Assembly: GCF_910592395.1 (NCBI RefSeq)
Contig: NC_088312.1
Span: 806,001-870,000 of the forward strand
From: Lineus longissimus
Taxonomy: Eukaryota > Nemertea > Pilidiophora > Heteronemertea > Lineidae
Direction of reading: 5' to 3'
Length of the DNA: 64,000 nt
In this document: positions 3,363 through 43,322 of the stretch, piece after piece
Position numbering within the stretch: position 1 is the stretch's first letter
How the letters are laid out: each line of letters starts with the position of its first letter
The notes under the pieces: model-generated
Database searches by the model: none
Seen by the model: only the letters and a program-made list of their open reading frames with translations
What the model was told of the DNA's origin: nothing
Translations under genes and position numbers: made by a program

Positions 3363-3836
3363 CAGTAGAATCTCTCTTTTTTAGTGGATACCACTGACAA
3401 GCGATTTAGACACAACCTCTTGATATCAGGAACCATTGCAATGATAAAGACTAGTCCATATACTATAAGTGCATAATGGACCGATTTCATGATTAATATA
3501 TGTACTTCGTCATATTGCCCCAGCTGCGAATGCGCTCAAAATGTGAAAACGTTCAAAATGTGGAAATGACTTGCGTTTGGGTCCATTTCTTTGTAAATTG
3601 CAATGGTTCCTTACATTACAAGCCTTCTATTAGAATGATTTGAAGAACATTTTGTGTTGGATTAAGATGTGTTGAAAAGAGTAAGACATTATTGAGTTTA
3701 TTAATTGTCCTTATCTATGTGTCTAATAATAAACGCGGACCACTATACACCATGGCCTGTCAACGTTTTCTTTGCATGAAACATGTCACATAACTTATTT
3801 TGGAAGAGTCTGTTTTGAAAAAGAGAGGTTCTACTG
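3363..3836. mobile_element. non-autonomous element with pogo-MITE-like ends (474 bp)
   Basis: Left end CAGTAGAATCTCTCTTTTT and right end AAAAAGAGAGGTTCTACTG are inverted repeats of 19 bp with one mismatch. The outer CAGTAGAA-CTCTCT is the same as in the MITEs at 367 and 21725. The right side is followed by TA; the left flank reads AA, so the target duplication is decayed or the boundary is a base off. The interior has no coding capacity that I recognise. Confidence 0.55.
3697..3702 (-). promoter_or_regulatory. candidate poly(A) signal AATAAA, distal knottin exon
   Basis: AATAAA on the minus strand, about 355 nt past the stop codon of the distal terminal exon (4057-4249). It is the first good hexamer I see downstream. 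It lies inside the 474-bp repeat element, so use is inferred. Confidence 0.4.
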
Positions 3837-4056: not shown

Positions 4057-4249
4057 TCATCGCCCCCATAACTTTCGCGTACATCTACAGTTTGATCCAA
4101 AAAAGTTGCATTTGCAGGCTAAGCGTTCGTTTGGGCAGCAGCTCCTCGTGGGGTTGGATGACCACGGATCACACCAGTCGTTCCAGCGTTTGCAGTTTCG
4201 TTTGTAGTAGTAAGCGTAATCGTTGTAGTAGTTTCTCGTCAAGGCCTGC
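4057..4249 (-). CDS. terminal exon B: Tyr-rich spacer plus amidated 8-Cys knottin
   Basis: The acceptor is ttctgcag at 4250 and upward, and the stop TGA is at 4057-4059. After the split codon the exon encodes a 15-residue spacer rich in Tyr (NYYNDYAYYY), a Lys-Arg site, then the mature peptide. The cysteine pattern is C-x6-C-x10-CC-x6-C-x-C-x6-C-x-C, typical of agatoxin-like inhibitor cystine knots with two C-x-C pairs. It ends Leu-Trp-Gly-Arg-stop, an amidation signal that would leave a Trp-amide. It shares the C-x-RW and CDP positions and the CRCT end with exon A, so the two exons are duplicates that diverged. It uses the same intron phase as exon A. Confidence 0.82.
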
Positions 4250-7200
4250 CTGCAGAACGGAAAACAACGACTGAGATTAACATTATGAAACCGCGTGTGG
4301 TACACTCGTTTAAACCAATTAGAGGTCTCTGGCTGCGATGAACCAGATAGCGCAATCCCTTGGGGTATCAAGTGACGTGCACTTCACGTGTGGGTTCTAC
4401 TCATTAGAAACTCCGATATTGACGGATTTAGCCTTTTCGATGCCTCATTATTTCGATCTACTCTTAAAGATAGGGTGATGAATGTTGGTTATCTAATTTA
4501 ACTAGCATGTTTAGAATAAAAAAGAAAAATGAAAATTCTTACATAACCAGTTTAGGGCTATATCAGCCACCCTGAAAGGTGTTTTGTGAGGAGTCCGTCA
4601 TTATGGCTCGTTATGAAAACAACCAACTTTCATTGTACGCTGTCTCATTATCCCAAGGAGACTCTACTAAGGCAGGGCGAGCGACTTTGGTGGGTGGAAA
4701 TGCTACATTAGGCCTTTTGGAGTCACTAGTCACCCTGGAGAATCAGCATCACATTTCCCGAGGGCAATTATCCTCGGTTCGAGGTAGGATTTCCCGGGAA
4801 TGTCGTCTCTACCAAGGAAATGTCCTAGGAAAATGTGGTGCTTATTCCCAAGAGGGTGCTGGTGCGTGTGCGGATTTGTGGTACACTGTGCATGTTTGGG
4901 GGCAAGGTCGGTGGGAAGGAACGAAGACACGCCTTTGTGACGTCACAGCATGGTTTATTTACCCTGGTTATTATGCGTATATGGTATCAAAGGAATGATA
5001 GAGAATACAATGAGAGAAGGCACGGTGTAATGAACACAATAGTGCTGGATTGAACGAAGCAGAACGGTCCTTTGTTTTGCCTTGAATCAGAACCCGAGTC
5101 TGAGAAAACCAAAGTACACGGTTGAGTCCTTTGTTTTTGCCTTGAGTGAAATGTTGACAAAACCAAAAATACCAGTCCTTTGTTATGCCTTGAATCAAAC
5201 TGTTATCAAACGTACTCGGGTAAAACTGAAGTTAATCCTTCGTTTGCTTTGAGGTACTGGTAGCTGAGTCAGATGTGAAACCAAAATAACGGCCAATTTC
5301 AAAGTTCTCACTTCGGGAAGTCACTTGTCGAGTGAATGCCATTGTTCAAAACTTTTACTGATTTACGACACGACAACAACGCACGTCCAGAACCACAGTG
5401 GCTCCACAAAAACCACAAATGAATACTTTTAAATTCTACTTTCCTTCGTGACCAAAGTTCGAATATTTCCGAATGGTTCCGAAAGTCAGTGTGCCGAGGT
5501 TAGCCGAACATGGTTCCCGTGCAGCGGCAGCTACCCCAGATGGAGCACTTGCAGTAGTACTTCTCGCAGCAGATGAAGTAGCCGTTTTTGCGACGGGGGT
5601 CACAGCTTTCACCCCAACGGCGGCACCGATTTTGTCTTGCAAGAAAAATGGGAGAAAATATCGGATTTTGTTGCAATTTTAGTTTTAAGGAGATTTCAGA
5701 CAACATCAGGGTAAAGAAGCGGATCATGACTGACGACTAAGACGGTACTATGAAGGGACACCAACAATCTCTCATCTTATGCCGACCAATTCGGGCAACA
5801 TGGACATCATTTCTGCCCATTGAAATGATGTCGATGCCTTGGTGAGCATAAAACGAACAACACTGAGCAAACACACGTTGTCATGTCTGAAGCAGTCGCT
5901 TGACTAATGAAAGAATCCGGACACATAACAATACGAAACCTTTGTACTGCACCTAAACGCTGACCACATGCATCCGAAAGAAGTACAAAGGATTGCGCTA
6001 TACAGTGTACCACCACCATAACTTCACATAAAGCAAATCAGAACATACTATAAAATGGTGAGACTCTTCTAAATAAGACAAACCAATGATTCACTTTGAA
6101 TAACGAAGTTCGCAATAACAAAACCTCAAGTAGACGTTTGGTCCGTGAGAACAAATGCTACTTTTCAGCGAAAAAGATTTTATTACAACGAAAAAAGATT
6201 TCAGTATCAATTTATTTAGTACTGCACTGAGCACTATGTGCGATGTGATATCGGCCTTAAACAAACATATCTTTGGTGCGTCTTATTTACAAGAACTCCG
6301 AAGTGAATATACAGTGACAGTATAATATTTCTATGATATAGGTCCATGTATATTTAAGTTGTGCGTTCTGTTCTCTCGCTGAAGATTTAGAGAAAAAAGA
6401 AAGATGCCATTTCTATCTTAGTGATCGCATAAGAAAGCTAAAGACGGAAGCAACCATAACTTTGACAGGCAACCACACTAAGAAGGAGGAGAAGTGTTGA
6501 AAGGGAACATGCCGTATCGCCACACAGCTTTATTATACCATAATCACGACGCAGAGCTGCTCTTCGTGGTGACAAATTGGAAACTCCTTTCCCACGTCAT
6601 GTCGTCCTTTGAAAACGCGGCGTAGTAATGGAGTGAATATGGGTTCGAATCCCCTACAAGCCGTGTTTGATGGATAGCATTTAGCACCATGTCATAACGG
6701 CAAGCGAATAAAACGACGACCACTAATTTCTCTCAAACTAAGGCGGCATTTCTGTGTTCTACCATTCCAGACATCCTGCCTTACCTTTTGGTTGCAGTTT
6801 TATAACTATCGAGCACACCTAGGAAGCTGCCATCGTCATCTTCACCTGCAAAATAAAATTGATGAAAAACATATCAATGCTCGACTGCCGACAATCATGC
6901 ACACGTACTGTCTTGTCCAAGAAGTAAATATATGTCAGGTACCGATACCTATTTCAATCAGACAACGTTGTCAATTCCCAGATTACATAAAGATAAATAA
7001 ATATGAGGTTTCTTATCCTTTCGTTTGTGTCTGTTCCGATATTGTCGTGGGCGTGCTGGATCCAACCACATGGCTTGCCAAAGGCTATTCCTTGAATCCA
7101 CCGAGACCAGTGTTCGTCACGTTACAATGGCACAACATGATACCTGCCACCCACTGGGTAATTCCAAGCCCCGAGACAAAAGTATTACACTCACCAGGAA

Positions 7201-10200
7201 GTTTGAAAAGTGTTAGAAACTAGAAATATGCGACAATAGTTGGTTGCTAACTTTATACGATATTTGGAGAGACAATAATATTTTGGGTGAAACACTATAA
7301 AGCTGGTCAATTCAAGAAACCTGCGACCGCTTCTCTATTGGTATGCAACAAAAGTCAACGATATGTCTCATAAAGATTCTCATCAAGAACCAGAGTTTCC
7401 TTTACAGAAAACGACTTTCCCCCTCTGAGAAAGCTGTGATTTTGTGGTATTTTGCTTGGTAACGGAACATGACTGAGTCTATACGCAGCGCAAAGAAACT
7501 GTTTCTTTCTTCCTTTGTATTGAAATATCACCGCTGGCGGGCTCTACCGTGATAAATACTGACAAAGACAGCTATCCCTTCGACACTGGTGGTATAATAC
7601 CAATGGATCCTAATCCGACTTCAGAATCATGATTTCGTCAAGAAAACTTAACTTAGCTTCATGACTTTGACCGATTTCATCGACATTGTATAGTTCACCT
7701 CAACCGGCCATGCAAGCCAGTTAGGATGTGTGGTTTAAAAACGTATAAAACGCGAGATTAGTCTTTGACAATTTTCTTGTACCGGTATTTCTCTACGAGT
7801 CAACGCGCTTGTATAAGATGCACTCCAGCCAATGACACCTCGACTTGGTCACCATGTTGTATAATTATTTACTTAGATTAATAAAATCCCATCGTATCAT
7901 GTCAGGACTTGTGCGTTGATCTTGTTGACCAAGCGACACTCCTGTCAACAGTAATGTAAAGGTCCAATGCTCGCTAATGCAGTCGGGAGGCAACTAATCA
8001 AAAACTTGACAGCAGAATCTTTGACCATTGGGCATCATGATACAGCAACAATTGACCGCATTATAAGAGACTTTTGGTAACAACTATGATTCAATCTTCT
8101 TGTAAACATGTATCTGCCGTTCTGGCCGTGTGGTCTGTGGGCGACGGCATTGGACCCAGTTTGTGATATCATGCTAAAAACTTCACAACGATCAAAATAT
8201 CAAATATCTCTGTAAAGTGTTACGGGCGGTCAATATGATTGATGGTAACTGTATATGCGGGCTTTTGTATTGTACAAGTGCTGTCTCAAAGCACTTTACA
8301 TTCATTCCTTTGCCCAATCCAGAAACCAAGAAGAGGACATTCTGCGTTACTCTAGCCACTTTAGGCCAGCTGAAAGTACATGTATCGAGGAAACGAGAAA
8401 AAGGACTTGGCAAGGCAAACTTATTTATGCCAAAACTATATCAGTTTATACAGAAAAGGTATACCCGGTATATAGAGAACTACATACTTTTCAAAACACA
8501 GTAAAGAAACAAACGTGTCTTCTTTGATAGTATTAAGCAGGGCTTCCTGAACAAAGACTTGTGGTTGCTGTGGTGGCAAAGCTACCGTAAAAGACCGACT
8601 GCTTGCTGGTCGTGGGCAGATGATGCCAGGGGCAACCACGCGTGGGAAGACTACCGCTGGCTAGCCTTTAAGAACCAAGATCAAATAGCGTTGATCAAGT
8701 TAGCATTTCCCAGCCTTAGATCATCGTGCCGAAGTTTTTTTCTTAAGACAACTGTGGATCCGATATTTTAACGTCCTAGAATGGGTAGAATATCTAGAAG
8801 GTCATTCATTTAGTGTTGAGATGCGTCATGCAGTGTTTAGGCAAGCCATCGAAAATGCATCTCGGTAGCATGTGCAAATAAGGCAATTCAACTCTTCCAT
8901 CAAAACTGAATAGGCAGCTGTTAAATTGGCGTCAGAATTGATCGGAGTAGCGACAGGCAAGAATGGAAGGTAATCTTCCAATATCTAACTTAATATTTTG
9001 ACGCCCACAAGCCAATAACAGTCCTGTTATCATCTGTAATCTGGAATATATAGCCTTCCTGTGCTCCACAATTCGTACACGTATACTTCGGGATTGTTAG
9101 GATGCACTAGGCAAGACCACATAACAATTTGGTGGAAAATTACATGCCTGGTTTGAAAATAGTAGAAATTGACACAAGTCCTCATGATTGCTCACAGGCA
9201 TTTATGTACGATTGTAAGAACACGCTTACATATACACGTTTATACTAAGTCCCATAATGCCAATGATGAGACGGACTACATTATTAGAACTTTCAAATTC
9301 AAACGAGCGAGTATATTTAAGTTTCAGGGGGCACTGCATGCTCAGCTGCCATCCATACACTTCGACCATTACGTTGCCATTTCCATGTTATGTAATGGAA
9401 CATAATTGCATTAGCCCAACATACAAACTTGTCGATTTCATAATTGCGTAAATCCATTTCTACTCCCATTTCGTCAAGAAATTATGTACATGTATTCCCA
9501 TTCAAAATTGCCAAAAGTGACAATTTGTGTAATGTGAACTTCTGCGCAGTTTTGAAAAGTTGTTTTCGACTAGCCAATATCGTGTAATGTCGTTCTCAAT
9601 CATTCTGGGATATTAGTTTGAGACGATGTTAAAACGCATTTTTTTGACACTCATGTCCTGTTTACCAATGTATAATTTAGTTTTGTATCTCTTGTTTGTT
9701 TCAAGCGAAAGTAGTGCGCCCACCGGAAATAATCACCTCCCTGGAGACTCACCATATTCTGCCTGCCCGCTTATTTTTGGATGGCCGAACAAAATTGCAT
9801 TTTGTACAAAATAAACTTTGGAATATACATTAATAAAACTTTGGAATATCCATTAATATTGCCAGTAATTGCCAGTTATTATGATGGACGCCGGTGAAAT
9901 GTTTGCGGCAACTATCAATAGAGTTGACTCTCAGGGTGACCAAACACCCGTCCCGGTGTGCAAGGGATAGTAGTCCTAGGGTTGATAGTCCGTGTAACAA
10001 TAGCCCGCATTGCTAAATGTTTTGGTTAGGGTTAGCGGTACAATAGATCATGCTGCTTAATTGGTCAAATACAATGCTACCGGACTATGACTCCAGGGGG
10101 ACTATATCCGCTGTCACACCGGTCGTGCTTGCTTGCTGCAGCGCTAGTTGTAATAGGAAGACAAGGCTGCATATCGCCACTCCCCTATGAGGCCTACAAG

Positions 10201-13200
10201 TAGACTGAGAGTGTGGCAGAGAGACAGCCCGTGCCTATCTTCTGATAAGACTTGACCATTTTCTTGGGCCACAAAATCGATGACCCGCTCCCAAATTACG
10301 CATTTCATACTTCAATGCCTGTATCTGCGGAACCATTTAACGTTCAACATAGTGATATCCAATGGCGATTTCACCGAAATCGGATAAGCGTTGTTATCGA
10401 TGGCACGGATATGGTCACGTCTGGCAATCCCGTGCAAAGCGCCACAAGTCCACCTACAATCCATTAACGAGTGGTTAATTAATGATAGATAAAAGATACA
10501 GCTGACAAGTGCTAAGGCGACACGATACGTGGCCTCACGACTGAATAATTTAGCACACCCTTTAGCTGAACTTCTGAGGACCAGTATCCTGCATGGCAAC
10601 CCATGCCATGATGGTCACAAATCGTATCGCGTAAGTATTACGTATGCCGGCAGTGAATTAGTCAGAGGTAAAAGAGTTCAGGTGCAGACATTGATCCAGT
10701 CTCTATAAAATTGACGGTCGTGCTGTGGACCAGGCATAGCTGGTACCAGCTCAGTGATAGGGATGAGCAAGACTCACAACTCGCTGGTCTTAATCTGCTT
10801 GAACACGATATGTCCATCTATATTTGGCTAACTCACTGAACAAAGGCTGTCCATGAAAGATACCAGTAAAAATAATGACCTTCTAAACCACGTATTCTTT
10901 CTCATCAGAGGATACTGCGTTGAAAGTATTCTCAGCTTTCATCCCTGCTGGATGAGTCGTTTCACAGGTAGTGTCTAAGCCTATGTCTCTATCATAAATG
11001 AAGCGGCCATTAAGCCCCACCTTGGATCTTTTTCAGGCTCAGCCGAGATCACTCCTTACCCGTCCTGAAATTGGTTGCCAAATGTGGTGCTTTTATTTTT
11101 TTCTCATATCGCCTTAACTAGTTCACGCCGAGAGCTAATGACCTTCACCTGATGAAAACGTATTTTATGACGTAGCTACTGCACAAAGGTCCTGTGATGA
11201 CCGCCATACTACGGCACGTCTCTCTGTGATTGAGCCTGAGCAATACTCTACATGCGCATTTTTCTTCATTCTCCCGAGACTTCAAATCCATCAAGATCGT
11301 GAGAAGCGAAGTACAATTTGTCATAACCAATTTACTCTCGTCTGGCATTCATTGTGTGCCAAACCCTTGTCCGAGCAAATTAATGAATGTTGCATGGAGA
11401 TATCCTTTACATGTTTACCCTTGACCAACCCTTAAGATATGTCCACACGGGACATGATTATCCGGCCAGGAGGACTCCGCGGGATGCAATAGAGAAAGTT
11501 CGGAATTAGGACCAGCGAATTTTGTTCAGGAGCGATATTTGTCGCCGCGACCTGCCTGCGATCATGATCGAACTCTGCCCTGTAATCTGATTGTTGGTTG
11601 GTTTCCATTGGACTTTTTTTGCACGGAACCGTCATCATAACGTCTCGTTACGGCATTGTGGTCATTAACAAAACAACGTTGATATAATGAAATTATTCGT
11701 TAATGCAACTAAAAGGGTTTTACAAACAGAACAAGCCATCAAACGATGTATAATTGAGACTTTATTATCTCAGAAATGCTAGTCGGTGTGTACGTGCACC
11801 GCATAACTCGACGCGAATGCTTTTTGGTGTTAAAGCAGATTGATGAATTTCGGACAGAAGTGAGAGATAATCATGAGAATGAGTTTTAGCTTCCATTAGT
11901 CTAAATGCCTGCATGACATTAAGATCCCTCGAGTACACTTTGTGCAGTTTGAAGTCAGATGTACTGACACTACATGACAGTAGGAAAAAGATAGCTAAGC
12001 TCGCACAGATATGTTATCTGGTTATGCCATAATAGTCCCCCGCCGGTTTTTTTTGGGCGAACACGGCAAGAGACAGACAAGAGAAACACCACGATTGATC
12101 TGGAACAGTTGCGTGTTGATTGGGTGTCGAGTCCCACATCCTCGATAAGCTCGTGAGTTATCGACACGGTTATCTAAACTTCAATGAACGGCCGAAAGCT
12201 CAGTCAGACGATGGTATAACTCACTGAAAACACTTCAAACCTCATGCCTATATATCACACTGAAGCTCTAATATATCGGTCCATATCCCCTACGAGGATA
12301 TTATTTCTGAACCTTTTCCAAATCATCAGCAACAACAAATGGAAAAAGGACGCAACCGCCAATTACCGCCAATTACCGAGAATCCATTAGCTTTTTGAAG
12401 GTAACATATCCCTTGTAAGTGATGCGAAACCGGATGTAAGTGTGAACCATGATGCGGCCAATGGACATGGTGGTTGTCACAAAGGTATAAAAATACTACG
12501 GATAAAGACTTGGCCCTTTGGTGTTTATTTAGTTCCAGCGAATCTCAGCTTCTTAAACGCCTTTCTATGCTAAGTTTATTGCCAATGATATCAATGATCA
12601 AATATGCTATAAAAAGTTCACTTGTTACCGCAAGAGCATTAAGCCAGTTTTCTTGCCGCTGTGTCAAACGCAGGTGATAGATTATCATTATCGTCATGAC
12701 TTGATTGTAAGTCCTATCTGGTCATGTCATCTTGATGTCCTCCCTATTAAATGCCACGCCAATCGTGGGGTGCCGGGGGTGTGCAGTACTCGGCGACTTA
12801 AATGTTAGGGCGGAATGACTTTCAATATCAAAATAGTATTTGCCTCTGAGAGTATTCATCCGTCTAATTCAATGACTGGCCGTCCGTATGAAGGTATGAA
12901 GTCGTCTTTAGGCAGTCCTTCTTCATCCTCGACCTTGTCTTGGTGGTCTCCCGAGTCATTGGCTGTCGCTGCAAGACAAACCGGTTTGCTGTGTTCAAGA
13001 GTTCTGAGGCATTTCTTGCCATCCTCTACAACATCACTTTAGGCAGTTCGCCAAGTATTGGACATGTGCAGCGACGGATAACAACTAAGGGTTGCACGGT
13101 TTTGTATTAAGTCGGCGATAATCTATGAGTGCGCTGGCGTTTTTATAAACCCTTGAAAGTATGGATATGGGATATCTTATGCGGGTGACAGGTGACCTTT

Positions 13201-16200
13201 TTCGTCCAACGCTTCCTGAGATGGGATCTAATGAAATTTCGCTCAATATGTCGCCGGGATATACAATGCTGCCACGAGCTGACCTACTGTCAAAATAATT
13301 TTGAAATGTATCTTACAAATCAAATTATGATCAAATTGTGATTATATCTAGTGACTGTATACATAACTGCTTCAATATGATAATCATTTCAATTTACAGA
13401 TGCACACTTCTTTCTGAGAAACACATGCTATATCTTGAGTTGATGAGAAATTCGTAGTGGGCGATTCACGCAAATGGAGTCTTTATCACACGGCTGGTAC
13501 TCGTGATTCTGTTGGTTGGATATGTATTTATCACTGAGCACCTCAATCTATCACATTTTACCGTCTGACCAGTGCGCCACATGCTGTAGATTTTGAGGAG
13601 CGATCTTTGCACTGGTACCCGATCATTATTGTTGAATAAAGTTGACATCTAGAATCATGAGTCCTCACTTTTTGGACACTCGCATATGCAGTGACTGATA
13701 CTGCCAAATAGAATCATGGCAGAGTGACATTATATTCAACCGATCAATTCCGAATTCGACGAATATAAGCCCCATGTCCGACCATCGATGGATCCGAGGT
13801 GCAGTTTATACTGTTCACGAAAACCTGACTGCCCCTTTTCATAAGAGGCATCCTCTCCTCAGCGAGTCTACGACTCTAACTCAAGTCCTCGCATAGAGGG
13901 GAAGTAGTTCACTGTGACGTTTCTACAATCTTCAAAGTAAAAGGCGACCGATAATGTTACACATATCACAAGCATATCAACTACTAGCCCGTACTAGTGT
14001 CGATAACAGCGCACGTAACAGGTCCTATCCGCCGATCGCGGACATGCCACTCCCACGCGAACGATGACCCTGAAACATTCGCCCGCAAAGGCTTCGTTAG
14101 GGCAACATTTCTCATTGGATAACGTACTGTAATGTCATTGCTTAATTAGGGGCTGCAACTTTGCTAACTGCTCAGTAAAAGGAGTAGTATAATCCTACTC
14201 ACTGGTCTGTACTGCAGGGCAAACACTTGCGATCATTTTGAGTAAGATGCCAAAGTAGAAGAGGTTTCGCGGTTTCGATATGCTTCCCACACGTTCAAGG
14301 CTTCTGTGTATTCCCAGCTCATATCGCAGTAATAACCAGCATGGGTAGTCTGTGACTGAGTTGCTGCAGTTTGCTGAATGCATGCATGAGGCGACCTTTT
14401 GTGCGCATCTCAGATTACCCGAAGAATGATTCCACCCGGGGGTGAAACTGTTGCAGTATTTTCAACCAGCTTTGAAATTTTATACCGTGGGCGAGGGTTC
14501 ATCTACATCTTAACGGATCGCTTTCAACTCTCATAGTTGAGTTACTTCAGATTTTCGATGAAGCAAGATATGATTCACTTTATTCCGTCAACAAATTATC
14601 TCATGAAAAGAATACGTCCTCATAAACTGCTTCTTTCATAATTGTGTTTCTTGTCCTTGACTTACGTGAACTAGCGGGCCATCGTTCAAGGCAGTATTAT
14701 TGCAGCGGAGACTCGTGAATTTAGATGGTAGCAGATTCACATATTTAAAGTCACCGACCTCAGTGGTATGCCATTTGATTAAGAAATATTGTTATAGCGG
14801 ACTAGCCATGCCATGCAATTTTCAATGTCTTCTTTTACAACCATAGATCAAGTTGATGGCTTCCGCCTGCATAAATCTGGTTTTAAACGGAGAGTGCAAA
14901 TTACAGCGACAACGTTCCTCCACAGTAGTTCTTGTACTCGCTTGTCAATTGAACGACTTACACACCGTGAACTATTGTAGGTTTAAATGCGTAAGCGCAG
15001 CAAAAACAAACTCCAATTAGTGAAATGCAATTCTCTCTGCTTGAAAGACTATTCTGTGACTGATCATGATGAGCAACGTCAACGATGTTGTGTCAGCTGT
15101 CGAGGTTTTTAAGGGCAATTACAAGGAATGAAGGATCTGTCCTCGGGTTTGCACTGCTTCTAGTTCCAGACTGAACTGCACGAGTTGAATACTGCACCTA
15201 GCCTTCAATTCCAATTCCAGACTGAACGGCGCTGAAGACCCGACATCACAGACCCAATAGCGCACCGCCGACACGACAAGTCTCTGGACGAAGTGGGTCA
15301 CGGAGAGAAATCTATGGAGAACGAAATCGGGACTTTGCTCACCAGCCGTCGCATATTGTGATCGTTGTGATTTTCTTGTGACACAAAGTAGAGGAATCGC
15401 TTCGATCTATAATCAATCATCTTATTTAAAATATGAGACACTCTTCCTACTGGAGGCATTGCTTGGCAAAGATGATCAATTACTGGATGTTCTACGTTTT
15501 GCATTTTGGTTCGATCTTCAGATCTGACTGGAAGAGCTGATTACACTGCATCATAGGCAACATAGACCAAGCTGATCTCCACGGGATCGGGAGGTTCCTT
15601 GGAGAGAAAGGTGGTCCTACACACATTGCTGGCCAAATCCAGGTTGTCAGTATTATCATGATCGAAACGAAGTCGAGACATGAATTGTTGTCTGCTTCTG
15701 ATTGAAAGGAAGAATGATGGAACATCCGATAAATGCCAGCTTCTGATATGAATCGATTGGCATGGATAGCTACCATCGGATCATTACTTCTATTTCAGCT
15801 TTGCCATCTCTTTCTGGTTTTACTAGTGATATTACAATCATTATTGCAATGTTACCACAAGCTATAGCTTTAATCAGTTGAAGGCTAGTAGTCTTGTAGC
15901 TGTGTCGTCGTGGGATGAAGCGGCCTGCGCAATGACGACTGAATTTCAGTTGCTGATTGCGTTACAAGGGTGATGATAGTTCGCAGAACAATGGCCTGTG
16001 ATGCCTGTGAAACCATGTCGTCAAGATGGGGGAAGTGGCTGTGTCATGAAACATCGTAATATAAACATGTGTATACTACCAACTCAGTAGTTAGGTAATG
16101 AGCTATTGTGTTTCCCAGATTGTCGAAGAAGGGGGTTAAACTATCAAAATGCTCTTCAGCTTTTCCAACATTTCACCCAACAAAAGTAACCGCCACGCTT

Positions 16201-19200
16201 TCTCTTCCGCTGTGGAACAATCAACGATAAGCGTTTCCGGTAGCCATGTAGCACCGTAGGCGTTCTATCCGGACGCTACGGCTTCTAACATGACTTTATC
16301 TCATGTTTTTGGTGTTGAGATCCGGGGGCACCTGCTGTCACCCTCATTATCACACCGTTAGTCAATTGATTTTGAATGGCCTTCAAATGAGTCGACAGCA
16401 CCACCCAGCGAATCTAATATAGGCGCCAGCTTCTTATCCAAGTCCAATCCCATCTTTATTAACAGACAGTCGTAGGCACTTTGCGCTCATGGATCCTTGT
16501 GTGTCGAGATGGGTGAACCACCTTGTCAACATTGCTGCGAGCTTTTAGTTTCGGATGCAATCGAATTCTCTTCTTATGATACCAGGCACGTTGTCATGAA
16601 ACTTGGGATTTGCTATTCCACGTGAAGCAAAACTAAAGCAACTGAAAATGTCTTCAATAAGCATTCGATATACGGTGCTTGATCGAAACCACCACACCAA
16701 GAATGAGAATATGCGCCATTTCCTTCTTGCCTGTAAACGTGGATGGGCTATGTTTATCGAAATATCTTGGATGTAATCGTAAGATTATTTCCAAGGAGGT
16801 CATGGCCAAGATGCCATTGCTGGACAATAAATCTGCTATCTGAGACCATGACTCAGGAGTAAGTGGATTAGTGCAGTAAATAAAACTGGACGACATTAGA
16901 AGTGACAGAATGTACACTACGACGTTTGTCCATGGGTTTAACTGTGTAGTAGTACGTGTACCCGTGGACTCTTTGCTCACGGTATCGCCTCCATGTCTTT
17001 TGACCAGATAGATGCATTCCGCGATGGTGTGCTTTAGCAAGTCGCCTATGGTCCTGCACCCTCTTTCCACGTGGAGCAAATCACAAAGCTTTGAGAAGAA
17101 CTCTTCTATACACGCTGTTTCAGCAGCCGTACAAGACCTCTTAGCAAAATAAGCTAAATCAGGTGGGATGACCCATCCTTATGGCAACTGTGTTAGCCTT
17201 GAGCTATTGACGTGATCTCCAACGCTAACCAGACAAGACGATACAACAACCAAAGGCGAATATAAGAGGACTCGTACCAAATATTTCAGAGGGAAAGTCA
17301 AAGGCAAACGAAAGAAAAATCTCAAGATCGAATCGAAAAAAGGCACCAATTATTTTCTCTTTCATGATTAGTGTAACAATCAGACTTCATCCTTTTTCTC
17401 ACGACATAGATATCTTCTCGTTGGAAACGAAAGAACTCTCACTACTTACTTTCTTTTGAAAAGCACCTTCCAGTGCCTGAATGCCTTTTTAGAGGATGTT
17501 ACTGTAGGCTAAGCGATAATAAGGTTAAGCTGAGGACCATGTAAAAACAATTGAGATAAACGCCTGTTCCCAAAATAGGCATTTTTTCATGCTGGCAGAA
17601 TCTGCATCATTCGTGTAAACTTTCTGTTTTCACCTCCTCATCAAATTTGAAGTGGGAAAGCTTCTGAATATAGAAACATAGACGATACTTTTTTCAACAA
17701 AATCTGTGTAATGTGTCGTACAAAAAGCCCCAGATCAAAGTCGACAGCTTGATATAGCATCGTGCATCTAGGACGCGAAAGGCAATTGCGTACTCTTCAT
17801 TATTTCTTTTAATATTGACATCCAGGAACTCATACCACCGAGACCACAAAGGGTCTGCCAGTTATTAAGGTAGCAATTGGAGTTATTTGGGAGAGGTGAT
17901 GTTTCAGAGAGATTATGAGTTATGGAAAGTGACCCAGTAAAATATAATTTCTTCACTGAGGGGAACGTCATGCACCTGAAACGTGCTGTTGATCAAAACT
18001 TTAATACTGATGATCAAAGCAGTTTGAAAATGCGTGATCGTTGAGTTTAATCATTTGTATACACAAAGCTTATTAAGTGTTGTTTCGGCATTTGATTTGC
18101 TTTCAGAAAAACGATGCCTTTTTGATGAGATTGATCATTAGAGCAAGTGTCGGTAATTGTTATGAAAGAAAGGGGTGTGTTGGGGAATACTTTGATTTCA
18201 ACATTTCATTCGCGAATAGTTTTCAATGATTTGATGTTATGGAATGATCATGCCCACAAACTCATGCAGATCAACGTGTCATTCTTCTCCTTTTTACCAA
18301 TAACACCCGTGTAAGGGATACCAAAGTGCGATATCGATCACCTCAAGCTATAGGCGAGTTGCTAACGAACGGTAAAGAAAGCGCGACCAAAAACTGACGA
18401 AGGTATCCAACATGGGCCAATCCACCATGGCCTGTCTCGTTGTTAAAGACAGGTTAAGTTTCTAACTTGGTGTTCAATTCGGCTTTTCTCATTCTCTGTG
18501 TTAAGCCCAGTAAATTTACCACCAAGCTAACTGTGATGTTAAAGCGAAGCCATACCAGCGGTTGTCAATACATGTATTGTAGAAGCTTTCCCCGCCTCTA
18601 CGTATTTCAAACCAACAAATGACGTTGGAGTGAAAAAAATTGAATCTCAGGAAGGTCGCAGAGCTACCTTGTAACGGACTGCAACACTTGGCGCAAGATT
18701 GACAAGTAAGGAACCGACACACATCTTGGGATGATCTTTTATTGATCATTTGTTGATTCATGGTATAAGACATGTTTTGGACGAGAATCCTTAAATCGTG
18801 GCAACGAAGCCATATGAATGATTAATCAAACTACTTTTAATGCTCTTGGATTAAATTTCGAAACCGTGTAATGAATCTTTAGTGCTGACTGATTGCAACG
18901 ATTTCCCCTTATAACGCCACCCAGAATGCTAATATGTATACTGTACAACATGTGAAACTGAGAACATCAGTAGTATGTTTTAAATGATAACACCCCCCTT
19001 GCCACTCCCTACGTCTAAAGGGAGGGCAAGAAGCACTCCTATATACCTCGCTAAATATACCCTAAGCAAGTATAATCGAGGTACATGTAGTTCCGGCAGT
19101 CTCATTTACACTTTCGAAAATATTCCCTCCGGGACCAGGAGTCTGAGCGCGGGCAGCAGTTGATGAGAATGAATTATGTTTCCTCTCTCCGTGCCCGAAC

Positions 19201-20441
19201 GGTAAGCTAATTGATGAACACGATGTGACAAGCCATTACCAACACTGTTTAGCAGGGCAAAAAGAGAAAATGGCGCAAATAGTGTTTTCTCAGTTCTGAA
19301 TAAAGTTATGTCGGATACGGCCATAGTCTTCTGTGTGGTCGTATAGCTGACACGCATCCCTGCCTTCATCTGATCTCAAAAAGAGTAGACCTATATGCCC
19401 AGTCTTCCGGGATATCGCATGGGTTTCACGGTCCCAATCGTCTGATCGTACTAGCCTATAGCTTCATGGTAGAACAGATTTCCGGACGAAATAGACTAGC
19501 TCGCTCTTTCTCAAGAGAATTTTAGAGGGCTACAATGCACTCCTTACACCCCTTGATTACACCAGTCGCAAAAGATCCGGCGGGCCTATTATTATCGGAA
19601 ATCTACACCCAACTCTAGTGCGGCCAATCGCTGGGGCGTAGCGATTTTGTCCGAAAGTTCGAATGTCTTCTCGAAACATCTCCAATATCAGCTAGCGATT
19701 TGTATTCAGAAGGCAAACCGGTTGAACCGAATGTGTCGTTCACGGCTACAAATGTCCTTCGCTTTGTACAACACTAAGGAAAACAGGCAGTAAGAGATTC
19801 ACCTGAGCAATGTTTTTTTTTATTGTCCAGGAATGGACGTGACAGAGCAAAGAGAACAGGTGTTATCTAGCTCAGTGGGCTGCATAAGATATGAATTGTG
19901 TCTTGGTGGCATCTCTTGCGGCACATCAAAAATGAATGTAATGTAATGGTCACGATAAATCCTGCCTTAAACAGTGGCTAAGGGTTGTCATCTTCGAGCA
20001 AGGCGTTAGTAGTTCACTGACAGAGTCAAGACTCTTTCGCGAGACCTTTTGCAACGATAACACCCGTTTGTCATAAGACGCCACAACGTCTGCCTGGCCA
20101 TTAGCACCTAAAGAGGCCGGTTGTTTCCTCAGGTAAGGTTTCCGAAATGTCTCCAGTTTCCTCCAAGAAGTTATGATAAATTTGAAAAATATCGTCTTGG
20201 CGAACAACGATGTCGATCTTGGCGTTGGCGTTGTCTTGTGGGCAACTGTGACGGTCTCAGTCTAAGAATCTATTGCGAGGACTTGTAATCCAGGGAAACT
20301 AATAATATATTTCTTTTGCACCGGATTCGGACTATCATATTGAGAAATGAATAGAGGTGACTTACCATACTGTGGAATACTGGAGCTTAGCACCAGGGAA
20401 ATGGAAGCGATCACGACAAATATCGTCAGCACTGTGTTCAT
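4057..20441 (-). CDS. agatoxin-like (knottin) peptide precursor with two alternative last exons
   Basis: Gene model from short exons: signal-peptide exon 20366-20441, propeptide exon 6785-6845, then terminal exon A 5500-5635 or terminal exon B 4057-4249. Phases agree throughout: 25 codons plus 1 nt, then 2 nt plus 19 codons plus 2 nt, then 1 nt plus 44 (A) or 63 (B) codons and a stop. The predicted precursors are 90 and 109 residues. Layout is signal peptide, short acidic propeptide, Lys-Arg, eight-cysteine knottin, and C-terminal Gly for amidation. This matches the agatoxin-like peptides known as neuroendocrine secretions in arthropods, so a secreted signalling peptide is likelier than a venom component. 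Receptor and function are unknown. Exon order, phases and motifs are read from the sequence; that both isoforms are made is inference. Confidence 0.8.
4250..5499 (-). other. interval between the two terminal exons
   Basis: About 1.25 kb: intron when exon B is used, 3' UTR and downstream sequence when exon A is used. Between 5060 and 5260 a word like TCCTTTGTTTTGCCTTGAATCA recurs several times on the plus strand, at about 5068, 5130, 5176 and 5238. This is a short degenerate tandem pattern with no coding sense. The frame at 4579-4998 has no splice context or recognisable domain. Confidence 0.4.
4954..4959 (-). promoter_or_regulatory. candidate poly(A) signal AATAAA, proximal knottin exon
   Basis: Minus-strand AATAAA about 540 nt beyond the stop of terminal exon A and before terminal exon B. 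A poly(A) site here would let exon A act as a true alternative last exon. Use is inferred. Confidence 0.4.
5500..5635 (-). CDS. terminal exon A: amidated 8-Cys knottin
   Basis: The acceptor is tttttcttgcaag, ending at 5636, and the stop TAA is at 5500-5502. The exon supplies one base that completes Arg of the Lys-Arg site, and the mature peptide starts at once with Gln, a possible pyroglutamate. The pattern is C-x6-C-x10-CC-x4-C-x-C-x5-C-x-C. The last residues are Thr-Met-Phe-Gly followed by stop, so the Gly would be converted to a C-terminal amide. There is no spacer peptide, unlike exon B. The core is rich in Arg, Lys and aromatic residues. The family call rests on the cysteine spacing, the two C-x-C pairs and the tail. 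Confidence 0.82.
6642..6652 (+). other. isolated tRNA B-box-like motif
   Basis: GGTTCGAATCC is a perfect RNA polymerase III B box, but the flanks do not form a T-stem of five pairs. I find no A box at the right distance, so this is not a tRNA gene. It may be a remnant of a tRNA-derived SINE. Confidence 0.25.
6785..6845 (-). CDS. propeptide exon of the knottin precursor
   Basis: A 61-nt exon bounded by a strong acceptor (ttttattttgcag) and donor (gtaagg at 6779-6784). Read in the phase left by the signal-peptide exon, it gives a short acidic linker (GEDDDGSF) and ends with AAA AG. The dibasic codon pair is finished by A (exon A) or G (exon B), giving Lys-Arg in both cases. The exon is below normal ORF cut-offs and is identified only by phase and context. 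Confidence 0.78.
6846..20365 (-). other. 13.5-kb intron of the knottin gene
   Basis: No nested gene that I can support. Many short open frames occur on both strands, the longest 141 codons (16654-17079, minus). They lack domains or splice context. A hydrophobic-start frame at 9626-9814 is listed separately. Confidence 0.5.
9626..9814 (+). CDS. doubtful small secreted-peptide-like ORF (62 codons)
   Basis: Plus-strand frame inside the large intron. The first 30 residues are hydrophobic and signal-like (MLKRIFLTLMSCLP, then NLVLYLLFVSS). The C-terminal part contains a two-cysteine loop, CPLIFGWPNKIAFC, and the frame then stops after Thr-Lys. There is no dibasic site before the loop and no amidation signal. 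A TATA-like TATAATTT lies inside the ORF rather than upstream. I recognise no family, and chance is a fair explanation. Confidence 0.15.
   Translation: MLKRIFLTLMSCLPMYNLVLYLLFVSSESSAPTGNNHLPGDSPYSACPLIFGWPNKIAFCTK
20366..20441 (-). CDS. signal-peptide exon of the knottin precursor
   Basis: ATG at 20439-20441 begins 25 codons with a classic signal sequence: Met-Asn, then a hydrophobic core (VLTIFVVIASISLVL), then a small-residue run (SSS) for cleavage. The donor gtaagt (20360-20365) leaves one base (phase 1), which matches the propeptide exon. The exon continues 20 nt upstream to an acceptor (ttatttctttaag) at 20462. That suggests an 82-nt 5'-UTR intron (20462-20543, donor gtgagc) that would also remove two upstream ATGs. 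The alternative is an unspliced leader. Confidence 0.8.
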
Positions 20442-20569
20442 TTTGTGAGCTTTGTTTCCACCTTAAAGAAATAAGAGAAAAAATATTGTAAAAACATATT
20501 GCATGATGATGAACTGGCCCTTCGACTGGCCGGGTCCGCTCACACGGGGGAGTATGGTGAATAAGCTGA

Positions 20570-20607
20570 CCGAAATGGATCATCAAACGCTTTCAGTATT
20601 TATATAG
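20570..20607 (-). promoter_or_regulatory. TATA box and initiator of the knottin gene
   Basis: On the minus strand CTATATAAATA covers 20607-20597. Thirty bases downstream of its first T is CCATTTC, an initiator-like YYANWYY with the A at 20576. That start lies 135 nt before the signal-peptide ATG. The spacing is ideal for a TATA-dependent promoter, as is common for regulated peptide-hormone genes. Activity is inferred. Confidence 0.65.
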
Positions 20608-33016: not shown

Positions 33017-36000
33017 ATGAGTTCGGCGGAAGCGGCTACGGCTCATACGGAATCGGTCCTTGAGGTTTATCGAAAATATTTAGAAAACCCTACCCACGTG
33101 GTCCAATGTTTACATCACTGTTTTCATGGTTTTCTTCGATTTCTGCCTAAATCTCGACAGTGCATATCGTTCTTTCGTTAGAGCACGTATTCCTCATATT
33201 AGAAATGAAAAGGTCACGTCAATCGGCTATTCAGAATGTGAGTCATTTGGGTAGGATCGAGTACTGTAGGCCTATATCATATCCATCTCTCTCACTCGAT
33301 CCTCTGTACATGTCTACGACATACAATACATGTCATACATGATGTAGGCTACTGCACATTACTTGGCCTGCTACATGCATCATGCACAAGTAGGGGGGCC
33401 TGCATGCATATCTTCTGACCATGGTACATGCTGTGAATGGATTTATGGAATGGTACAGGTGTGTTCTACAATATTGAGTCGGCAAGTGCTGCAGCGTCAG
33501 GCAATGCCGGGAACCTACCCAAATTAAATGCATCATCGCTACGTCATGTAACATCAAATCATTTTTGCACGAACTTGCAGGAAAATGATGATGAAGGCTC
33601 AGATTCAGTATCAGATAATGAGGAGTCCAGCTCAGGCAGCGAGTCGGATTCTCCAGATGAACAAAGCCTCGAGCCTCAGCCCTCGACTTCTAAGTGTAAG
33701 AGAGAGGATGTCCAAAGTCCACCCCTGAAGATGGCAAAGTTGACGAAAGGAGAGCTTTATAAACCACCGACAAATGAGGAGCTGAATGAACTAAAGGAGG
33801 CGGAGGATCTGTTCCAGTCTAGCTTGTTTCGGATGCAGGTATGCTGTTGTCTTGTCTGATTGATTGTCAAGGTTTAAACTGAGTGAAAGGTGATTGAAAA
33901 ATCAAAATATATTCTGACTGCAAAAATCTTCAAGGCATTAGGTCAGGCTTTTGTACAATGTGCTTGGTGATTTTGCCCCTTGGCTCTTTGTTGGTGCAGG
34001 TCAGCTTTAAGACATTGTTCGTTTGGATTCAGTTGGTGGAAACACTTTCTTTTTTCAGATCTCAGAGTTGTTGAATGAGGTGAAGGTTAAGGAGAGCAAG
34101 GCAGTGACTGAGTTCCTCCATAAGTTGACAGATGTGTTGACTGGCATGGAGGCAGGCAAGATGTATGATGTAAGTATGGGGTCCCTGTCCTCCAAATCAG
34201 TGGCGCCAGCTTGATTCAGTGTTATAACAGGGCTTTACTCGGGCCTTTTTGTTGGATATGCACGCAACAAACCCTCACACTGAGTGAATGCTGAAGAAGA
34301 ATGAGTATTTTACCTACAAATTGTATTTTCCCCCAAAAGATGCAAGATACTTTTTTAGGATCGACATCACTTAAACTCTTTTTTTTCAGCTAACAGACCA
34401 GAGATGGTGTCGGAAGATGAAGATAAAGGTGCCACTTCATCAAGAACCTTTTCGCGTGAAAGGGAAGTTCAGCTTTCATCCTCCCAGCAAGGTGACTGTA
34501 TTGGGCAGCTTTGTGATGGGAACCTGTGTAGAACCTGATCCTCATATTGATGTGGCTGTGGAGATGCCTGTTGTGAGTATAGAGTGGTGCCTTCTCTCAT
34601 GAACAGGCTCTGAATGAACTATGTTTTGGAACCATGTTTTTCATACAATATTTGTAGTGAATTTGAAAGCTCCCTGCATGATCTCTCATCTTAAATTCCT
34701 CACAATTGTGTTATACTTAGAGATTTTTTTACCTCAGAAATCGTGTTGTTGAAATTTGTCAATTTCTTATTTATTCTGTCTTCTCTTTTGGAAGGAATGT
34801 CTTCAAGCCAAGGACCACATGAATGAAAGGTACCTAAGAAAGCGAGCTCTCTACCTTTGTCACATCGCTGGGATACTCAAGGGTCATGACCTCGTGAAGG
34901 ATGTCAAGTTTACCTATCACCATGGAAACCATATGAAGCCAATACTAGTCATAAAACCTGCAGGTAAGAATTTGAAAAGGCTAGAGGGGTAGAAATAGAA
35001 AATATTTTTGTCTAGATTTACCTAGCGCAGAATCTGTAAAACTGGTAGGCCTATTGGTTTAAACAGAAATATTAATGTTGTCGTGATGTCATTTCAGGGA
35101 AAGCAGGTAAACTAGTTACCATCAGGCTTCATACCAGCCCAGCTAAAGGTTTCTTCAAGATGAGCAAGTTCCTTATTAACAAGAATAATATCCGTCAAAG
35201 TTGGTATACAGGGGTCGAAACTGAGGAGAAGGAGGATGGTAAGAAGATGATTGATGTATTTTATAGTCATAGTCAGTGCCAATACTGTCTAAGCAAATTA
35301 CATGTCAGATTCTGTTTCAAATCGTGCTTGATGAAGTTGTGCATGTGGTGGCATCGTGGTCCTTGCCAAAAGTTGTCCGTGGAGGAAATAAAGCCAAGCA
35401 ACCTCTATGTTTTAACAAGTGATTTTGTTGTGGAGATTTCGTAGTGCAAATGATTTCTCAAGTGAACAGATTTAACCTTCAAATGTTTATTTGCATTTCA
35501 GCAGTGTCAGCAGTCCCCACCCCGCACTACAACACCACTATCCTGGCAGATATGACGATGGAAGATCATCAGAAAGCTATCATGGGCCAGCTACACGAGC
35601 GGGACGAGTTGAAGAAAGGTGCAGCTTTGCTGAAAGTATGGTTACATCAAAGAGAACTTGACATGGTATGTTCAAATCTCCAAACCTGCTCTATTCGATC
35701 TCAAATGAGATTGCCATTATACCGGTAGGCATATCGAAGGGATTGCAGCCTGCCTGGCTCTCTATTTCAGATGATAATCATTTCATGTTTCTCTTTCAGG
35801 GTCACGGCAGCTTCAGTGGGTTCATCATGACCATGCTGGTGGTATATCTCTTGTCCAAGCAACGACTCAATCGCATGATGAGCAGCTATCAGGTGTTGAG
35901 GAATACGCTTCTTGAACTTGGTAAGTATAATACCTCATCCATCGAAGCCAGTTGTTTCAGTGAGAAATAACTAGCTCTGCCAGCCCTGAACATTCAAAAC

Positions 36001-39000
36001 CAGTTTCTCTTGTCATTATTTATAATTCTTGCTTTATTTGTATTTTCAGCTAAACTAAATTTAGACGTCGAAGGAATCAGTTTGTGCCACCCAACAAATG
36101 GTGCCACCCCTCCCTCTGTTGAAGAGTTCCATAAACATTTTGGAGTTGTCTTCGTTGACTCGACTGGATTCGTGAACCTATGTGCTAATGTTACCAAGAA
36201 CACGTTTCAAAGGGTGAGTGAGCTACCTGCTCAGGACAGATGCCTTTCATGGCCTTCATTTGCTGCACTGCTCTGTGAGGCCTTCAACTTTGATGTGGCT
36301 CTTGTCTGGTATGCTGGGCACGTCACCGACACGAGAGCTAATAGCCAAGTTATATTTGAGTATGACAGGAATTACCATGATTGTTTACAGATTTCTTTCA
36401 TTCACTTACTTGTCTGCAATTGCAAACGTGGGGTTGTGTTACAGGACACCTGTGGCACTCTAGGACAGAGTCACAGTGATATCTAGTAGTTCACACAACC
36501 TATCATTGCTATGCCATCAGTTTCAAGCAGGTTCATTATGGTATGGGGGCAAAACAGGTGAGAAATATATTTTCAGTCTTAAAAGACGCTTGATACTTCA
36601 TTGCAGGTGAAGCAAGAGGCTAACATCTCTGTTGAGACTCTCGACAACCCGACCATAGATGGAATAGAGTGTCTCTTGCTGTCCAAGGTGCCTTTCTCAA
36701 TGAAGTTTGACCACATCTTTCAGTAAGTGGAAATTCAGTTAAACTTGCCAAATCTAGATGATAGCCAAATTGATTTAAAAATTATACAGAATTGAAGGTT
36801 TTGGTGTGATCAGTAGGGCTGAATTGCTGCATGCCTCTGAGGCAAGAGCAAAGGACTTATGGGTACTGATACCTCCATCTCATTGTGCTTTTGGAGACAA
36901 TTATTGAACTTGTGAATACCCAGAACCTGTTGTCACTTTTCACCTTTTCAGTTTAACACACATGGAGCACCTGCAGTCCGCAGTTGGCAAGCTAAAGCTT
37001 CAGAGAGAGCTGATGGACCATTCGGGTGACTACATCCACACGGTCTTGCCACATATACTCAGTCTTGTGATGCAAGCTCTTGGTAGCAGGGTCACTCTGT
37101 TAGCCCCCAAGTTAGAAGCACCAAAGGAATGGGCCGTGAATTCAGACCCACCACTCTGTAATCTCGTTGATAAAGTTACGTTTGGACTCCTGTTGGACAC
37201 CGCTCATTCAACGAGTGTTTTGGAGAAAGGGCCCCCAGCTGATACGCATGAGGTAAGTGAGAGAGTTCTCCTCAATTTATAATCAGTATTGGCTTGGATG
37301 TCTGGTTTGACTATACAATGTGAGTTTTCATCGGTACTTTTTCAATGTGCACCATGGAGAGTTATCTCATGCTTATACTTTAATGTTGCTAATTCATGTT
37401 TTTCTCCTTCTCAAGGCGAAGGTTTTCCACCAGTTCTGGGGTGAGAAGTCTGAGTTGCGGCGCTTTCAAGATGGTAGTATCTGTGAGGCGGTCGTGTGGT
37501 CTTGTAAAACACTAGCTGAACAAAGACTTGTCTGTGCGAGAATCATCAAATACATCTTGGAAAAGTAAGGATTGAACATTCATCTACAATGTAGCTTCTT
37601 ATTCTTGAAACTGGACTACTTTGCCGTTGCCTCATGTCTCGTGTGCCTGCCAGATTCCTTGGGACTTTCTGACTCTTTTTGAGTGCATCATCAACTTGTG
37701 GGGAAAAGAGGGCTACTCTGATATGGGATTCGGGCAACAGTGCTTTTGGAAACAATGGGGTTGGAGCTAGATTGGGAAAATGGACATTATAGATTCAGAA
37801 AATGATTAAAGGAAGTAATTCCTTCTTTTTATTCTAGGTCTGCTGACATCAGTACCAAGTCCATTCGTTACATTGGTGGCCAATTGGATTCGATTCTTCA
37901 ACCTGCCCAACCCAAGAAGAAGTTTATCCACTACGGCACAGGAGAGGAGCAGAACATCGGCATCATGAAGATGTACAACAACCTGAGTAAACAGATCAGA
38001 CAGTTGAAAGATTGGCCTCTGAGCGTTACCTCCATCTCAGGGATAGACCCAGTGTTCAGATTTGCCGAGGTGAGTTCACTTCTGTCATCTGAAGAAAGCA
38101 CACTCAGCCAGACTTGATCTCAAGAATCTGCAGTGCACACATAACTTCTAATCTGGAACTATGTTGGTGTGATTTTCTTGCACAAAAGTCTTCTGTCGTC
38201 TGGAGGTGTGAAAGATATGTTCGCTGTGGGAAGGTTATGTGAACAAGAAAGAAAATCTAGTGTGTTGATATCATCAGCCTTGGCTTCTGGTGAAGTTCAT
38301 TGTTTGGTCTTGTCATTCCAGGTTTTCCCTACTGTACCGCTAAAACAGTTAAAAAAGGAGGCAGATCTCACATTGGTCTGGCCTGATGGTACCATGAGGC
38401 CATGGTCTCAGTCGATGAGAGGTGAGTAGTGAGACAGTGGGCTGGTCTATTTGTCGAACTGGCCTTACTGCGCTCAGGTGAGTAAGTATTGACCGGCGCA
38501 GGTTGGAGTGCTCATCTGGCTGCAATATCGTAGGGCTTCTAAAAGGTTTGGTTAAAGGGTGAAGTGGGGATGATAAGCTCTACATTAGTTGATGTCACAG
38601 CACAGAATTAAGTGTTTCCCAGCACTATGATTTTGAAGTTTGCATGGTTTTATTTCAGTTGTTGTAATGCTGGAGGGTAGTGGGAAGTGGCCCGAGGACC
38701 GTGAAGCCATCAAGAGGGTCAAGGCCGCATTCCATATCAAACTGGCCGAGATGCTGGAGGAAAGTTATAAATTCAGATGCCGAGTTGCTGTGGACCATGT
38801 GCTTGTTCTCAAGGTGGGTCTAACGCCTGGGTTCTGTTGTAGGATCAGAGGCATTGTGGTTATACCCTGGGCTTATATTTACTATAGCATAGAGGTTTGA
38901 AGTTCCAACTGTCGGGAGTACCACCACCGTCTATTTCCTAGTTCTTATTGTCAACCAGAACATCTTGTCCCCAGACCCCTATGTACCATAAGCCCACAAG

Positions 39001-41649: not shown

Positions 41650-41963
41650 GGAAAACAGCCAGGTCAGATGCAGTCTGGTTGTGACTGTATCATCTCTCTC
41701 ACCATGGAGCATCTATGTCCGATGCAGTCTGGTTGTGACTGTATCATCTCTCTCACCATGGAGCATCTATGTCCGATGCAGTCTGGTTGTGACTGTATCA
41801 TCTCTCTCACCATGGAGCATCTATGTCCGATGCAGTCTGGTTGTGACTGTATCATCTCTCTCACCATGGAGCATCTATGTCCGATGCAGTCTGGTTGTGA
41901 CTGTCTCATCTCTCTCACCACGGAGCATCTATGTCCGATGCAGTCTGGTTGTGACTGTCTCAT
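41650..41963. repeat. 54-bp minisatellite, six units
   Basis: Near-perfect 54-bp units containing CAGTCTGGTTGTGACTGTAT and CACCATGGAGCATCTATG. Because 54 is a multiple of three and the unit lacks stops, several frames stay open. One of them reads QSGCDCIISLTMEHLCPM repeated. The later units change TGTATC to TGTCTC. I regard it as a non-coding array with shadow ORFs. Confidence 0.9.
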
Positions 41964-43115: not shown

Positions 43116-43318
43116 CGTTATGGCGATGGCGTAGTTCTTTCATGAAGTCATTTAAAGTTCTGAACTACGCCATCGCCATCTTCAGGGCAAGGTAGGAACT
43201 GAAAATACCGTAAAAAGACCGTTTGGTCTTTTCAGTTCCTACCTTGCCCTAAAGATGGCGATGGCGTGGTTCAGAACTTCAAATGACTTCATGAAAGAAC
43301 TACGCCATCGCCATAACG
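43116..43318. mobile_element. 203-bp nested palindrome inserted in the satellite
   Basis: The left arm starts CGTTATGGCGATGGCGTAGT and the right arm ends with its reverse complement. The arms match over about 90 bp around a short centre (ACCGTAAAAAGACCGTTTGG). Inside each arm GATGGCGATGGCGTAGTTC and GAACTACGCCATCGCCATC form a second inverted pair, so the element is a palindrome of palindromes. The satellite resumes directly at about 43323, which marks it as an insertion. No coding capacity. Confidence 0.8.
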
Positions 43319-43322
43319 ATGG

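Follow-up and report, generated by a model that had tools for sequence, protein, structure and literature searches.

A nemertean CCWamide/agatoxin-like gene with two alternative last exons, probably encoding two different amidated knottins

Can one gene supply two sharply different knottin hormones by exchanging its last exon? The question is raised by LOC135487422 of the nemertean Lineus longissimus, which lies on the minus strand of a 64-kb stretch of DNA (64,000 nucleotides (nt), contig NC_088312.1, positions 806,001 to 870,000; called the window in the following, with coordinates counted from its first letter). Four minus-strand coding segments of this gene combine into two open frames, one of 90 codons and one of 109, with the following exons and parts:

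20366-20441, minus strand: coding exon 1 with the ATG, the putative signal peptide and the start of the propeptide (hydrophobic N-terminus; identity to the N-terminus of NCBI proteins P0004 and P0005)
6846-20365, minus strand: intron 1, 13.5 kb, GT-AG (splice sites)
6785-6845, minus strand: coding exon 2 with the acidic propeptide, which ends in Lys followed by bases 1 and 2 of the Arg codon at the cleavage site (identity to P0004/P0005)
5500-5635, minus strand: alternative last exon A with the eight-cysteine (8-Cys) peptide QNRC...TMF (isoform X2, P0004)
Parts of exon A, minus strand: predicted mature peptide 5506-5634, Gly 5503-5505, stop 5500-5502
4057-4249, minus strand: alternative last exon B with the 8-Cys peptide NCKRW...KLW (isoform X1, P0005)
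Parts of exon B, minus strand: Tyr-rich linker 4204-4248, Lys-Arg 4198-4203, 8-Cys peptide 4066-4197, Gly-Arg 4060-4065, stop 4057-4059

Counted from the ATG at 20441 and with stops included, exons 1, 2, A and B measure 76, 61, 136 and 193 nt, and the combinations e1+e2+A (273 nt) and e1+e2+B (330 nt) are each in frame with a single terminal stop. All splice sites are canonical GT-AG (a slash marks the junction): the donors read TATG/GTAAGT (exon 1) and AAAAG/GTAAGG (exon 2), and the acceptors, which are rich in pyrimidines, read TTTTGCAG/, TTGCAAG/ and TTCTGCAG/. The last junction cuts an Arg codon after base 2, as AG/A into exon A and AG/G into exon B, and because the codon is split at this place in both cases the two exons are phase-compatible. 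The A precursor (90 aa) is identical to P0004, isoform X2 of LOC135487422 from L. longissimus, and the B precursor (109 aa) to P0005, isoform X1 of the same gene; NCBI places both at one locus with a 47-residue start in common and labels both “uncharacterized protein”. Since both translations match these entries exactly, the same gene model has been reached by independent annotation. At the sequence level, a gene with two alternative last exons behind one signal/leader is confirmed.

The initial annotation, made from the letters of the window alone, had proposed this arrangement of four minus-strand exons with matching phases, two alternative last exons behind one signal peptide and propeptide, and two 8-cysteine peptides with Gly and Gly-Arg tails, and its coordinates proved right. 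Across the six reading frames of the whole window, the cysteine pattern C..C..CC..CxC..CxC is present at just two places, exons A and B, with no third 8-Cys pattern anywhere, and it was found in 0 of 300 first-order Markov windows. A short DNA pattern that encodes Cys-Lys-Cys gave 9 matches against 7.6 expected, which does not rise above chance.

Both precursors begin with 20 strongly hydrophobic residues encoded by exon 1, for which the predicted structure has a helix at residues 2-20 (predicted local distance difference test, pLDDT, of 87 and 89 for the first two ten-residue blocks), and both end in a putative amidation signal (...TMFG-stop in A, ...KLWGR-stop in B). The two peptides are basic, with an isoelectric point (pI) of about 9, and differ strongly from each other: 20 of 44 aligned positions are identical, loop lengths differ, the segment between Cys6 and Cys7 is SIWGS in A and NFFGSN in B, and the residue preceding the amidation Gly is Phe in A and Trp in B.

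To which family do these peptides belong? The CCWamides of spiralians have been described as the ortholog group of the arthropod agatoxin-like peptides (Thiel et al, 2021; PMC8557429). According to this source, the family usually has three coding exons, with the signal in the first and the 8-Cys amidated peptide in the last, an intron within the basic cleavage codon after base 2, and frequently an aromatic residue between Cys6 and Cys7. The Lineus gene combines a putative signal in the first exon with short precursors of 90 and 109 aa, has three coding exons per isoform with the knottin entirely within A or B, and carries its last intron within the cleavage site (AAA AG, then A or G). Eight cysteines follow in the order C..C..CC..CxC..CxC in both A and B, an aromatic residue stands between Cys6 and Cys7 in each, and the sequences end in a C-terminal aromatic residue and an amidation Gly (...MFG in A, ...LWGR in B). 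In exon layout, intron phase and the aromatic residue between Cys6 and Cys7, the gene thus resembles the CCWamide precursors reported from nemerteans, molluscs, annelids, phoronids and brachiopods (PMC8557429). The loop between Cys2 and Cys3 comprises 10 residues in Lineus as against 6 in all 118 of 118 non-Lineus cores.

The similarity exceeds the cysteine frame alone. When the Lineus peptides were shuffled with their cysteines fixed, 1 of 2,000 (A) and 0 of 2,000 (B) shuffles reached the real score against a hidden Markov model (HMM) built from non-Lineus cores, which had themselves been retrieved by a profile that included Lineus; this argues for a similarity to the arthropod-type members beyond the shared cysteines. 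Pfam Toxin_9 (PF02819) matches A with 16.1 bits and B with 18.6 bits, below the curated cut-off of 21.3 bits, and is matched at E up to 1 by 32 of the 32 members of alignment A3, Lineus isoforms included. Toxin_35 is unlisted for A and B at E up to 10, where filters can drop weak matches, and 19 of the 32 A3 members match it at E up to 1. The closest solved structures are mostly spider toxins, with agelenin at the top of one ranking; a search of the PDB with exon A alone gave nothing meaningful (four matches up to E 10, best 0.29), NCBIfam held nothing relevant for the Lineus peptides, and Foldseek gave no informative result for the model of the whole precursor. Sequence searches returned only the two Lineus isoforms for the exon-A precursor (2 of 3 candidates) and only itself for the exon-B region (1 of 1 candidates), and an alignment of both isoforms with a Lysmata vittata peptide retrieved 125 of 131 candidates as hits. 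The 120 matches listed comprise the two Lineus isoforms, P0073 with exon 1 only and 117 sequences with a core; among these listed matches none is named as a spiralian outside Lineus, the species-named non-Lineus rows being all from arthropods and several rows carrying no species name. Taken together, the sequence evidence supports membership in the knottin-type secreted peptides of the CCWamide/agatoxin-like family. The initial annotation had likened the peptides to the amidated agatoxin-like knottins of arthropods; the family stood, to which the nemertean host and the spiralian name CCWamide had to be added.

As an observation on exon 1 itself, P0073 (a metagenome protein of 44 aa from a JGI contig of 6029 bp) has the exact 26 residues of exon 1 followed by a different intron sequence, and may be a paralog or come from the DNA of a closely related animal.

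We consider it highly probable that LOC135487422 is a CCWamide/agatoxin-like neuropeptide gene in which exon choice gives either of two amidated knottins that serve as neuroendocrine signals. One promoter would produce one pre-mRNA with two alternative last exons, and the product would be set by which splice site is used, a choice that probably goes together with that of the poly(A) site: a transcript ending between A and B would yield isoform A, and a transcript that reads on and skips A would yield isoform B. Convertase cleavage at Lys-Arg and conversion of the glycine tail into an amide would then release a 43-residue Phe-amide knottin, possibly with a pyroglutamate start, from isoform A, and a 44-residue Trp-amide knottin together with a free Tyr-rich 15-residue linker peptide from isoform B. 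The monoisotopic masses calculated for these products are 5184.21 for A (amide, four disulfides) or 5167.18 with pyroglutamate, 5275.24 for B, and 1979.87/1962.84 for the B linker. The peptides most likely act as neuroendocrine signals via a receptor, and exons A and B most likely go back to a single exon that was duplicated; the lead of the A-B score is small and no proof of a duplication within nemerteans. Candidate signals for such transcripts are found at the following positions:

20601-20606, minus strand: TATATA in CTCGCTATATAAATAC, a TATA-like candidate promoter box by consensus match only, 165 nt before the ATG
4954-4959, minus strand: AATAAA, candidate poly(A) signal of isoform A, 541 nt past the A stop and upstream of exon B
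3697-3702, minus strand: AATAAA, candidate poly(A) signal of isoform B, 355 nt past the B stop

The presumed 5′ leader also contains a small upstream reading frame (13 codons plus stop) at 20463-20504 of the minus strand.

Could the peptides be weapons and not messengers? The main competing explanation, which we regard as improbable, is that a neuropeptide-type gene was recruited to make one or two mucus or proboscis toxins, so that the locus would supply a pair of weapons, or one weapon beside one hormone. The mucus of L. longissimus contains cystine-knot alpha-nemertides (PMC5864730), an agelenin-like knottin, U-nemertotoxin-3, has been reported from the mucus of L. sanguineus with transcripts described only from Lineus and Riseriellus, and Thiel et al argue for a recruitment of the family as toxin in spiders (PMC8557429); the basic character of both peptides and the spider toxins among the nearest solved structures point in the same direction. 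However, a shared knottin fold is uninformative on function, U-nemertotoxin-3 is described with Pfam Toxin_35 whereas for A and B a weak Toxin_9 match is the sole entry up to E 10, in a listing from which filters may have dropped weaker matches, and the window holds no further copy of the cysteine pattern. Moreover, the gene keeps the features of CCWamides and agatoxin-like peptides, including the terminal aromatic residue with Gly and the conserved intron phase.

That one of the two last exons, B or else A, is part of another gene next to this one or is an unused duplicate in decay, the two-isoform model being an annotation artefact, appears very improbable to us. A prediction pipeline can join exons of neighbouring genes, and two observations speak for this reading. 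In-frame ATGs occur in the 34 open codons that precede exon A, and AATAAA hexamers are near chance, as 26% and 17% of random minus-strand points of the window have one within 541 and 355 nt, respectively. Set against the artefact are the placement of the two isoforms by NCBI at a single locus with a shared start, the open frame of 45 codons before exon B, which lacks an ATG, and the phase, eight cysteines, glycine tails and intact frames that A and B both retain, in a pattern absent from the random windows. Least probable of all, with a very slim chance in our estimate, is that the gene has one more last exon, or additional optional ones, in intron 1 or beyond the low end of the window, so that the choice between A and B would be part of a larger one. 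In decapods, agatoxin-like genes come in two to four splice forms, and the window extends just 4.1 kb downstream of exon B, but a third 8-Cys pattern is lacking in the window and isoforms X1 and X2 alone turned up for the locus in the sequence searches.

If exon choice indeed selects the peptide, is this layout peculiar to Lineus? Alternative splicing of single agatoxin-like genes also occurs in arthropods, and these genes resemble that of Lineus in being of the same peptide family and alternatively spliced. Two to four splice forms have been reported for decapods (PMC4888303), further splice forms for a tenebrionid beetle and a cockroach, and three precursors for L. vannamei, with identical N- and C-termini and different inserts between them (PMC11673531). 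Whereas L. vannamei thus keeps a constant peptide end with variable inserts, Lineus exchanges the whole peptide exon. We compared isoforms in hand-picked groups from the 120 listed rows, covering the 18 arthropod species with at least two rows and leaving out single-row species. Among these listed matches, in which database clustering at 90% conceals near-identical forms, the knottin (first Cys to end) is unchanged across the rows of one locus in 16 of the 18 species, and the differences between rows lie ahead of the knottin segment. Harpegnathos and Homarus have one knottin each, and a third Argiope row with another knottin (P0027) lies on another contig and was counted as another gene. Macrobrachium nipponense and M. 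rosenbergii, represented by the NCBI predictions P0013/P0021/P0037/P0061 and P0049/P0068, have two knottins behind the same N-terminus, identical at 34 of 43 positions, which suggests that prawn agatoxin-like isoforms probably use alternative (duplicated) knottin exons. Because of these prawns, Lineus is probably not alone in exchanging a knottin exon; they share with it one N-terminus followed by two different knottin segments, but the prawn knottins are near copies whereas the Lineus peptides differ in loop lengths and in Phe versus Trp before the Gly. Among the same database sequences, P0006 of the hoverfly Episyrphus balteatus (186 aa) is an agatoxin-like protein whose single chain carries two knottin domains.

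Alternative hormone exons also occur in genes outside this family. They encode different hormones in DH31 and DH37/DH47 of beetles, with exon duplication proposed for DH37/DH47 (PMC6585902), and have been reported for CNMamide in a termite and decapods (PMC4888303) and for calcitonin A/B (PMC11673531). Like the Lineus gene, these genes join shared signal/propeptide exons to alternative hormone exons, but they represent other peptide families and arthropod examples. To our knowledge, none of these hormones is an 8-Cys knottin. Closer in lineage, a spiralian gene of the oyster, Cragi-CCCGS, yields two cysteine-rich secreted peptides by alternative splicing (PMC8398477), as in Lineus, but it is grouped with mollusc families and characterized in C. 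gigas only, and the likeness is one of description. The main text of Thiel et al lists CCWamide and two additional nemertean paralogs, whereas the Lineus locus yields two peptides from one gene; this main text has no match for “splice variant” or “alternative splic”, although its list of candidates reportedly covers paralogs as well as isoforms and the supplementary list for L. longissimus may hold isoforms (PMC8557429). In the open-access papers searched, we found no prior description of a CCWamide gene with two last exons, though one may exist elsewhere. The initial annotation had called the layout one not known to be described. It has more precedent than this implies, given the two isoforms in the NCBI annotation, the exon exchange in other hormone genes and the similar Macrobrachium loci; what stands is that the Lineus peptides are far more different from each other. 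In this narrower sense, we judge as new a predicted CCWamide/agatoxin-like gene in which one complete peptide exon can replace another of strongly different sequence.

Of the 117 hits, 31 carry a linker with Phe/Tyr-Arg-Arg at its end, which is optional in several species, and the Lineus B linker (4204-4248) lies at the same place. Homology of the exon-B linker with the arthropod linkers was considered, the resemblance being only in composition and place. A more far-reaching possibility that draws on it, which we hold to be rather unlikely, is that the nemertean CCWamide expansion is partly exon duplication within one gene and that the choice between A and B mirrors a very old linker switch. 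Some of the CCWamide paralogs listed from transcriptomes would then be splice forms, and the A knottin, directly after Lys-Arg, and the B knottin, behind its Tyr-rich linker, would correspond to the two states between which arthropods splice an SSLIYVFRR-like linker in or out. With such a switch the animal would choose between a Phe-amide and a Trp-amide ligand for different receptors.

The receptor of the CCWamide/agatoxin-like family was unknown in 2021 (PMC8557429), and one expression unit able to make two sharply different natural ligands would provide a ready pair for its identification. The gene also suggests that the knottin hormone family can diversify without gene duplication, a route that bears on how knottin hormones turn into venom peptides. 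It cautions, too, that some CCWamide paralogs known from transcriptomes may be splice forms.

The window contains no tRNA and no Rfam match, and its remainder holds further genes and repeats. On the plus strand, 33437-40917 has Pfam matches to Nrap_D2, D3 and D6 in three of four frames tested and is probably the gene for nucleolar protein 6 (Nrap). The minus-strand gene at 46854-53650 matches Carn_acyltransf in four of four frames tested and is a carnitine acyltransferase gene, presumably that for carnitine O-palmitoyltransferase. A retrotransposon without long terminal repeats (non-LTR) occupies 59560-63614 of the plus strand; its first frame has a PHD match just under the cut-off and its second frame, with endonuclease and reverse transcriptase, is open over 1,062 codons, for which reason it may be a recent copy. 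Tandem arrays at 684-2122 and 41663-44404 consist of a 61-bp unit (23 copies) and neighbouring units of 54, 68 and 79 bp with similar text.
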